Source of the DNA: Halanaerobium saccharolyticum
GTDB taxonomy: Bacteria; Bacillota; Halanaerobiia; Halanaerobiales; Halanaerobiaceae
Direction of reading: 5' to 3'
Assembly (NCBI RefSeq): GCF_004362045.1
Contig: NZ_SNWX01000013.1
Coordinates: forward strand, 1-64,000
DNA length: 64,000 nt
A model generated the notes under the pieces. The model worked only from the letters and a program-made list of their open reading frames with translations. It did no database searches and was not told where the DNA came from. Shown here in pieces: positions 872 to 58,638 of this stretch (within the stretch, counting starts at the first letter, position 1; each line of letters begins with the position of its first letter). Both the position numbers and the translations under genes were made by a program.

Positions 872-989
872 CAGCGTGCCATGCTCGATGCATAAATGCA
901 GAGTTATCCTTGCGTTTATAAAAGAAAACTCAGCGTGCCATGCTCGATGCATAAATGCAGAGTTATCCTTGCGTTTATAAAAGAAAACT
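872..989 (+). repeat. Two perfect 59-bp tandem repeats in the V-ATPase intergenic region
   Basis: Positions 872-930 and 931-989 are identical over all 59 bases. Flanking partial matches (from about 865 on the left; CAGCG at 990-994 on the right) extend the periodicity. Each unit holds a small hairpin (ATGC, loop TCGAT, GCAT) and a longer stem-loop whose loop is ATCCTTGCGTTTATAAAAG plus two A. The array fills the 147 bases between the F stop and the E start. It contains no ORF and adds 118 bases to the operon mRNA. Perfect identity suggests a recent duplication. Confidence 0.97.
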
Positions 990-1004
990 CAGCGAAAGAG
1001 GTGA
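932..1004 (+). promoter_or_regulatory. Structured RNA element directly upstream of the subunit E ribosome binding site
   Basis: This is the copy nearest the E gene. Stem 1 pairs ATGC 940-943 with GCAT 949-952 around TCGAT. Stem 2 pairs TGC-A-GAGTT 956-964 with AACTC-A-GCG 986-994, with one A/A mismatch, around a 21-nt loop at 965-985. The ribosome site AGAGGTGAG follows at 997-1004. A gap-free alignment to 58325-58389 keeps the loop while the stems change in a compensatory way, so a functional RNA fold is likely. No known class is recognised. It could be a translation enhancer, a processing site or a ligand sensor. Confidence 0.75.
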
Positions 1005-49473: not shown

Positions 49474-49729
49474 AAAAAAATATCCAGCGATATGCCGGAT
49501 AAATAGCAAAAATCGCCTCATCTTTTAATATGAGATAGCACAACATAGTAAAAATTACTATGACAGTACTGTATATTTTATATACAGTCCCAGCAGAATT
49601 TTTGAACCCTTAAAAAATCCACTTCGGCAGAAAAACCTTTTATTTTAGCTTTAAGTCTGGGTTCAAACCAATTCTAAAATTACTGATTTTTTCTGCTCCT
49701 CTACCTCATCTACTAGATGAGGTATTTAT
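49474..49729 (-). promoter_or_regulatory. Lysine riboswitch (L-box) with terminator, controlling the NhaC-type gene
   Basis: On the - strand P1 pairs ATGAGGTAG (49709-49701) with CTATCTCAT (49538-49530). Between them lie GAGGAGC...ATCAGTA, CTGCCGAAGTGGAT and CTGTCATAG, which match the conserved core of Bacillus lysC-type leaders. P4 (CTGTATAT/ATATACAG) and P5 (CATAGTAA/TTACTATG) are perfect. Loops of P2 and P3 share complementary TGAACCC and GGGTTCA, the expected kissing contact. The terminator ATCCGGC (49500-49494) / GCTGGAT (49488-49482) plus T-run ends the leader. ACCTCATCT just upstream can compete with P1. Confidence 0.94.
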
Positions 49730-58327: not shown

Positions 58328-58397
58328 CTCGACGTACTCGATGTACAAGTGCTAAAATATCCTTGCGTTTATAAAAGAGATTTTAGTGAAAGGAGGT
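58325..58397 (+). promoter_or_regulatory. Structured RNA element directly upstream of acpP, same family as the one before atpE
   Basis: Stem 1 pairs GTAC 58334-58337 with GTAC 58343-58346 around TCGAT. Stem 2 pairs TGCTAAAAT 58350-58358 with ATTTTAGTG 58380-58388 around a 21-nt loop (58359-58379), of which 20 bases match the atpE copies. It starts at the fabG stop and ends in the acpP ribosome site AAAGGAGGTGA. Alignment with 926-1000 needs no gap until the AAAG before the ribosome site. Confidence 0.75.
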
Positions 58398-58404
58398 GAA
58401 TGGA

Positions 58405-58638
58405 GTGGATAATATCTTAGATAGAGTAATCGATATTGTAGCAGAAGAATTAGCAGTTGACAGAGATGAAGTTACTGAAGACTCTTCATTTATAGAAGAT
58501 CTTGGAGCAGATTCTTTAGATGTTGTGGAATTGGTTATGGCATTTGAAGAAGAATTTGATGTAGAAATCCCTGATGAAGATGCAGAAAACATTCGCACAG
58601 TAGAGGATGCTGTAAGTTATTTAGACGATATTCTTTAA
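58405..58638 (+). CDS. acpP: Acyl carrier protein
   Basis: ACP carries growing acyl chains on phosphopantetheine. The 77-aa acidic protein has the attachment Ser in [12 protein letters not shown] and the flanking EDSSFIEDL and [14 protein letters not shown] 58405 lies 8 bases after AAGGAGG; GTG 58396 overlaps it. The gene is preceded by the conserved RNA element and followed by a terminator. fabF, which often follows, is absent. Confidence 0.98.

Follow-up and report, generated by a model that had tools for sequence, protein, structure and literature searches.

Rickettsia palindromic elements (RPE) have been described between genes and inside RNA genes (tmRNA and M1 RNA), with a mobility mechanism given as unknown (PMC2229807). 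The same source presents the CIR element of Caulobacter as intergenic and as two stem-loops joined by a linker rather than one terminal palindrome (PMC2229807). REP elements consist of one hairpin after a GTAG-type tetranucleotide (PMC8266576). The 5S rRNA of Thermoanaerobacterales contains expansion modules of two unequal hairpins, and similar motifs are reported to occur in intergenic regions and in rRNA leaders and spacers; 5S rRNA expansion segments are also recorded for Halanaerobium (PMC7812874). IS200/IS605 elements with short hairpin inserts are reported from H. hydrogeniformans (PMC7290912). A term search of the open-access literature retrieved, in the portions of text that it covers, no published unit like the one described below.

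The window analysed here, i.e. the whole stretch of 64,000 nt of Halanaerobium saccharolyticum DNA, includes three copies of a unit of 59–65 nt with the boundaries GACG...CAGTG, all on the forward strand. The first two (positions 875–935 and 934–994) form an exact 59-nt head-to-tail repeat in the atpF–atpE intergenic region and each gave 76.9 bits with R1, a covariance model built from a 15-sequence alignment; the tandem period is 59 nt, and the model ends of the two units overlap by 2 nt. The third copy (58328–58388) lies in the fabG–acpP intergenic region and scored 79.2 bits, with E = 1.5e-17 in the genome-wide search. The initial annotation had pointed to a loop common to the atpE and acpP leaders, and the 19-mer ATCCTTGCGTTTATAAAAG is indeed exact in all three copies, at 906–924, 965–983 and 58359–58377. 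When as many as 3 mismatches were tolerated, the window still had 3 matches, as compared with 0.04 expected, and none of 100 shuffled windows had 3 matches.

Stem-loop 1 of the second tandem unit (940–952) reads ATGC-TCGAT-GCAT and is followed by stem-loop 2 (958–992), in which the strands CAGAGTT (958–964) and AACTCAG (986–992) enclose a 21-nt loop and include one A/A mismatch. The corresponding elements of the acpP unit are GTAC-TCGAT-GTAC (58334–58346) and a second stem-loop (58352–58386) with the strands CTAAAAT (58352–58358) and ATTTTAG (58380–58386), again around a 21-nt loop. The base changes that had been listed for stem 2, the single A/A mismatch named in it, and the exchange in stem 1 around TCGAT are all correct on the sequence. 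Loop–loop pairs C945–G973 and G946–C972 (945–973) are predicted for the second tandem unit from the covarying columns given below. This unit adjoins the Shine–Dalgarno core GAGG (998–1001) of atpE (1012–1623), which encodes a V/A-type ATP synthase subunit E (PF01991, E = 6.8e-12), and the acpP unit is followed by the Shine–Dalgarno sequence AAGGAGG (58390–58396) and the acyl carrier protein gene acpP (58396–58638; PF00550, E = 1.3e-16); both genes are on the forward strand, as are both Shine–Dalgarno sequences, which were read from the sequence. The initial annotation placed the element immediately before the ribosome site in both leaders; the atpE leader has two units, and only the second abuts the Shine–Dalgarno sequence. 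The window further includes a lysine riboswitch (112.9 bits) at 49528–49711 on the reverse strand.

In related genomes, the sequence around the loop again had this two-hairpin layout, and tandem copies were frequent. In 107 copies, all 11 pairs of stems 1 and 2 change on both sides and are 97.2% paired, with a covariation score of 0.756, as compared with at most 0.114 when the pairing is slid. Both stems contribute, stem 1 (columns 9–13/20–23) with 4 of 4 pairs that change on both sides (97.3% paired in the 107 copies) and stem 2 (columns 31–39/73–81) with 7 of 7 (97.1% paired). An all-against-all covariation scan revealed extra pairs beyond the two stems. One, between columns 3 and 27, lengthens stem 1 and changes from U-A to C-G in 31 copies; two others join loop 1 to loop 2 (columns 15–53 and 16–52; 96.6% paired), with C-G replaced by U-A in 1 copy and G-C by A-U in 9 copies, respectively. 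In the full set of 16 pairs, all but one show two-sided changes (15 of 16), and the covariation score is 0.611 against at most 0.094 when slid. The strong covariation in both stems bears out the covarying fold with a near-constant loop proposed in the initial annotation and, judged from the comparison of copies, the unit is two hairpins with a loop–loop contact. A three-base pairing between GAC and the loop, proposed first, was superseded by the covarying loop–loop pairs. Single copies fold poorly as plain RNA (z-scores −0.7 to −1.65), and their minimum-energy RNA fold differs from the conserved fold, so the structure has to be argued from related copies. Covariation and a common loop in two leaders are not by themselves proof of a gene-specific riboregulator.

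The covariance-model check for further copies was positive: R1 gave 13 matches in the own genome and found matches in 37 of 61 related genomes, with the highest counts being 47 (G019) and 30 (G025). Among 299 sampled genomes of the phylum, R1 matched in the own class alone, with no match in ~290 genomes of other classes. A pattern scan recovered copies in Halanaerobium congolense, H. saccharolyticum, H. kushneri, H. polyolivorans, Fuchsiella and other Halanaerobiales, and the pattern matches in other phyla lacked the fold. Two weak matches in a Hermodarchaeota assembly were rejected, being located in near-identical stretches of that assembly and unlike the unit beyond the pattern; in viral contigs, the only matches were two weak ones (21 bits), neither of them as long as a unit. 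As the initial annotation had supposed, no Rfam class matched at the gathering score, the best match at E ≤ 10 having 17.5 bits against a cut-off of 60. The unit is a dispersed, probably mobile non-coding repeat of a family that is probably limited to the class Halanaerobiia.

Comparison of empty and filled sites showed the clean gain of one unit, with no target-site duplication at these sites (at most 1–2 ambiguous nt). Two such sites are located within the right end that follows TnpB genes (PF07282/PF01385), with empty counterparts for both. At the first, the empty junction AACCTCGT-AAGTTCC (two loci) corresponds to AACCTCGT-GACGG..CAGTGM-AAGTT when filled; at the second, GCGTCAT-ACTTGCC is the empty and GCGTTAT-GACGG..CAGTGA-ACTTGCC the filled form. 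At acpP of three genomes (G004, G005 and G008), one unit is nested in another, giving CTAGTGCTG-TGACGCA..TTTGTG-AGTCGACC as compared with the uninterrupted CTAGTGCTG-AGTCGACC, and similar unit-in-unit nesting occurs at two other loci. Units are also found inside two terminator-like hairpins and at two small hairpin loops of a MITE-like repeat of G025. When the empty TnpB-end RNAs were folded, most insertion sites were unpaired, and one site (L197) was in a predicted stem. These folding models make a preference of insertion for loops likely; loops are not the sole targets, since nested copies interrupt the first strand of stem 2.

The MITE-like element of G025 (L098–L110) is ~300 nt long, repeated and partly palindromic, with two small hairpins, each of which is occupied by a unit in some copies. 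At five loci (L195, L197, L069, L133 and L149), the right ends that follow IS605-type TnpB genes resemble structured RNAs and are likely omega RNAs; they had no Rfam match in the loci scanned. In an IS200/IS605 derivative (PATE), the ends of the unit would match the LE and RE of an IS605 element; the comparison covered right ends, within which the units are inserts and not termini. A host tmRNA or group II intron had been suspected from the flanks; ARAGORN and Rfam found none, and the flanks are TnpB-type IS ends.

Both orientations are well represented, with 38 of 101 listed copies having both flanking genes in sense and 34 having both in antisense, in a list that is skewed to high-scoring matches and takes its flanking genes from simple ORF calls. 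In Halanaerobiaceae, sense copies lie ~110 nt upstream of 16S rRNA in several genomes, 4 nt upstream of 5S rRNA, between the T-box and the start codon of valS and thrS, and at a thi locus with a TPP riboswitch. Other sense sites in this family are at rpmB, rpsP, fliK, an EamA transporter gene, atpE and acpP, and a further one is at a gene that we take to be smg. Antisense sites include rpsH/rplF, ilvN/ilvC, tyrS/alaS and tRNA spacers; protein names at the rpsH/rplF, smg, ilvN/ilvC and tyrS/alaS loci were read from translations. The antisense unit between rpsH and rplF was seen at five loci (L088, L319, L339, L048 and L120), which span four Halanaerobiaceae genomes and G019 from another family, and is either very old or the result of repeated insertion at one site. 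The initial proposal, an element shared by two leaders and dedicated to translation or sensing, is not supported in view of this spread over many unrelated sites, sense and antisense. Copies unrelated to ribosome sites had been named in advance as evidence against such a role; many copies do lie away from ribosome sites, and many others lie directly before them.

The acpP leader of 14 genomes has 0 to 3 units, or half a unit, and those without a unit include three Halanaerobiaceae genomes from closely related species; the atpE leader has two units, one or none, the last in one genome. Identity between units is 0.725 for the same locus across genomes and 0.642 for different loci of the same genome, the background being 0.648. 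Since same-locus identity exceeds same-genome identity, which equals the background, most units are old; a local burst of amplification in Halanaerobium was not supported by this comparison. Few Halanaerobium copies look recent, which counts against claiming current mobility. Between same-locus copies, the differing pairs comprise 115 with two-sided changes that preserve pairing, 2 that are G-U and 11 that are broken; such scarce intermediates suggest whole-stem replacement or templated correction, besides selection. Stem-loop 2 at acpP is identical over 36 nt among G000, G003 and G007, and fourfold-site identity is 54–59% for distant pairs (59% for G000 and G007). The leader of G007 (fabG–acpP; L164) has a half unit that consists of stem-loop 2 alone, its 36 nt being the same as in the window copy; since its first hairpin has been lost, this half unit was probably not inserted recently. 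Local constraint on acpP stem-loop 2 is likely, as judged from this conservation.

The reading that we consider probable is a dispersed, probably mobile repeat kept as a folded single strand, with Halanaerobium copies mostly old and some of them resident in leaders. In this reading, the single-stranded unit forms two neighbouring hairpins whose loops pair with each other, and the folded strand (ssDNA or RNA) would be recognised by an enzyme acting in trans. Insertion is clean, without target duplication; its targets are intergenic or otherwise non-coding, and hairpin loops and even other units are among them. Units also occur head to tail. The route may be an HUH- or ssDNA-recombinase-like insertion without duplication, or one at the RNA level. 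Most Halanaerobium copies would have been inherited with their locus, and those before acpP, atpE, rRNA and other genes would be long residents, sited so that the ribosome site stays intact. Such copies, including those at acpP and atpE, may be neutral, or may possibly have been put to use later in a regulatory role. Translation genes account for 6 of ~14 distinct sense leader loci, an apparent enrichment by raw count; a neutral repeat would not predict such recurrent sense leader copies, which argues against the mobile-repeat reading.

The sense copies before 16S, 5S, valS, thrS, rpmB, rpsP, acpP and atpE could instead be an RNA module that acts in cis within a regulon for growth or translation. 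It would bind RNA polymerase, as put RNA of phage HK022 does, or else some protein or small molecule, and would affect elongation, processing or translation; the copies outside leaders would be escapees. The compact, loop–loop-paired fold is in keeping with this, as is the constancy of acpP stem-loop 2 at a divergence that has nearly saturated the fourfold sites. Such a regulon is nevertheless unlikely in view of the many antisense copies, including those at rpsH/rplF and tyrS/alaS, the units found within transposon ends, in terminators and inside one another, and the acpP genes of three genomes and the atpE gene of one that lack a unit. The pairing in the stems also speaks against it: of 1127 stem cells, just 13 are G-U, hardly more than the 9 that are A-C, unlike in tRNA stems from the same loci, which served as the yardstick (G-U 18, A-C 0); TPP riboswitches were dropped, having too few variable pairs. 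This balance, as expected if Watson–Crick pairing is kept, e.g. in folded DNA of either strand, is suggestive only, and the inference is weakened by the decay of copies, which adds mismatches of every kind. There is likewise a small chance that the unit is a class-wide folded RNA spread by insertion, either as a common cis element of rRNA-operon, ribosomal-protein, tRNA-synthetase and ACP leaders, which may be an RNA-polymerase-binding antiterminator or a growth-linked sensor, or through RNA-level insertion into abundant transcripts.

The model first put forward, a translation-enhancing or mRNA-processing leader that boosts genes above their operon neighbours, is doubtful to a greater degree. 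It agrees with the unit directly before the ribosome site of acpP in most Halanaerobiaceae and of atpE in four genomes, and with the near-constant CAGTG-AAAGGAGG spacing. However, the unit also precedes the untranslated 16S and 5S rRNA as well as fliK, is antisense elsewhere, and is missing at acpP of closely related species. In E. coli, atpE encodes the F-type c subunit. The analogy drawn with the E. coli atpE leader fails, because atpE here encodes the V/A-type E stalk subunit (PF01991) and not F-type c.

No mobilising enzyme was found among the Y1 genes or the listed flanking families. Y1 genes are present in most of these genomes, and no correlation was found across genomes between Y1 transposase counts and unit counts: G013, G020, G026 and G032 have 5–21 units and no Y1 (PF01797) match, with losses or assembly gaps possible in these drafts, and G016, G033 and G036 have Y1 and zero units. 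The RAYT-sized Y1 genes at two loci (L205 and L206) have no unit closer than 1.5 kb, and TnpB was the only flanking gene family among those listed to recur at unrelated positions. A REP-like element moved by TnpA-REP (RAYT) or another Y1 transposase, to which the hairpins, intergenic sites, insertion without target duplication, units in TnpB-associated IS ends and widespread Y1 genes could point, is highly improbable given these mismatches between units and Y1 genes, the lack of a constant GTAG-like tetranucleotide at the foot, and the two hairpins with a 21-nt conserved loop.

The dispersed folded repeat favoured here shares features with several known systems. Like RPE, it is a short non-coding repeat; each RPE is one long palindrome of 105–146 bp that has terminal inverted repeats, and RPE are often located in reading frames, whereas the unit has ~60 nt and two hairpins with loop–loop pairs and is mostly outside genes. 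With REP and BIME it has in common small size, intergenic sites, a folded single strand and frequent arrays. A REP is a single palindrome, perfect or imperfect, of 20–50 nt with a cognate Y1 transposase; the unit instead has two hairpins, the second with a conserved 21-nt loop, neither hairpin has a constant tetranucleotide next to it in ~100 listed copies and their flanks, and several unit-rich draft genomes have no PF01797 match. The two-stem-loop plan and intergenic sites recall CIR, but the CIR arms are long inverted repeats and the element has a GANTC motif, whereas the unit has stems of 4–7 bp, mutually paired loops and a period of 59 nt. The Thermoanaerobacterales module is a 46-nt insert in helix III of 5S rRNA, and R1 had no match outside its own class in the phylum-wide sample. 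As compared with the classical MITEs (ERIC, Correia and RUP), the unit agrees in size and copy number (<200 bp non-coding and many copies; here 59–65 nt and up to 47 per genome), but its ends are unpaired in the covariation analysis, with no terminal inverted repeats, and the empty and filled sites have no target-site duplication, usually TA in MITEs. Riboswitches have a consistent sense position before linked genes, whereas the unit is on both strands and at many unrelated and non-gene sites. The put RNA of phage HK022 consists of two adjacent hairpins that act in cis in leaders and bind RNA polymerase; the unit differs in being present on either strand and also inside transposon ends. It would offer a test case for the spread of folded single strands without an obvious transposase and for inserts that become parts of leaders; across one class of anaerobic halophiles, it is found in the leaders of rRNA and translation genes. 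Most small bacterial repeats are defined by one palindrome, whereas this unit keeps two hairpins and their loop–loop pairs despite heavy sequence change.
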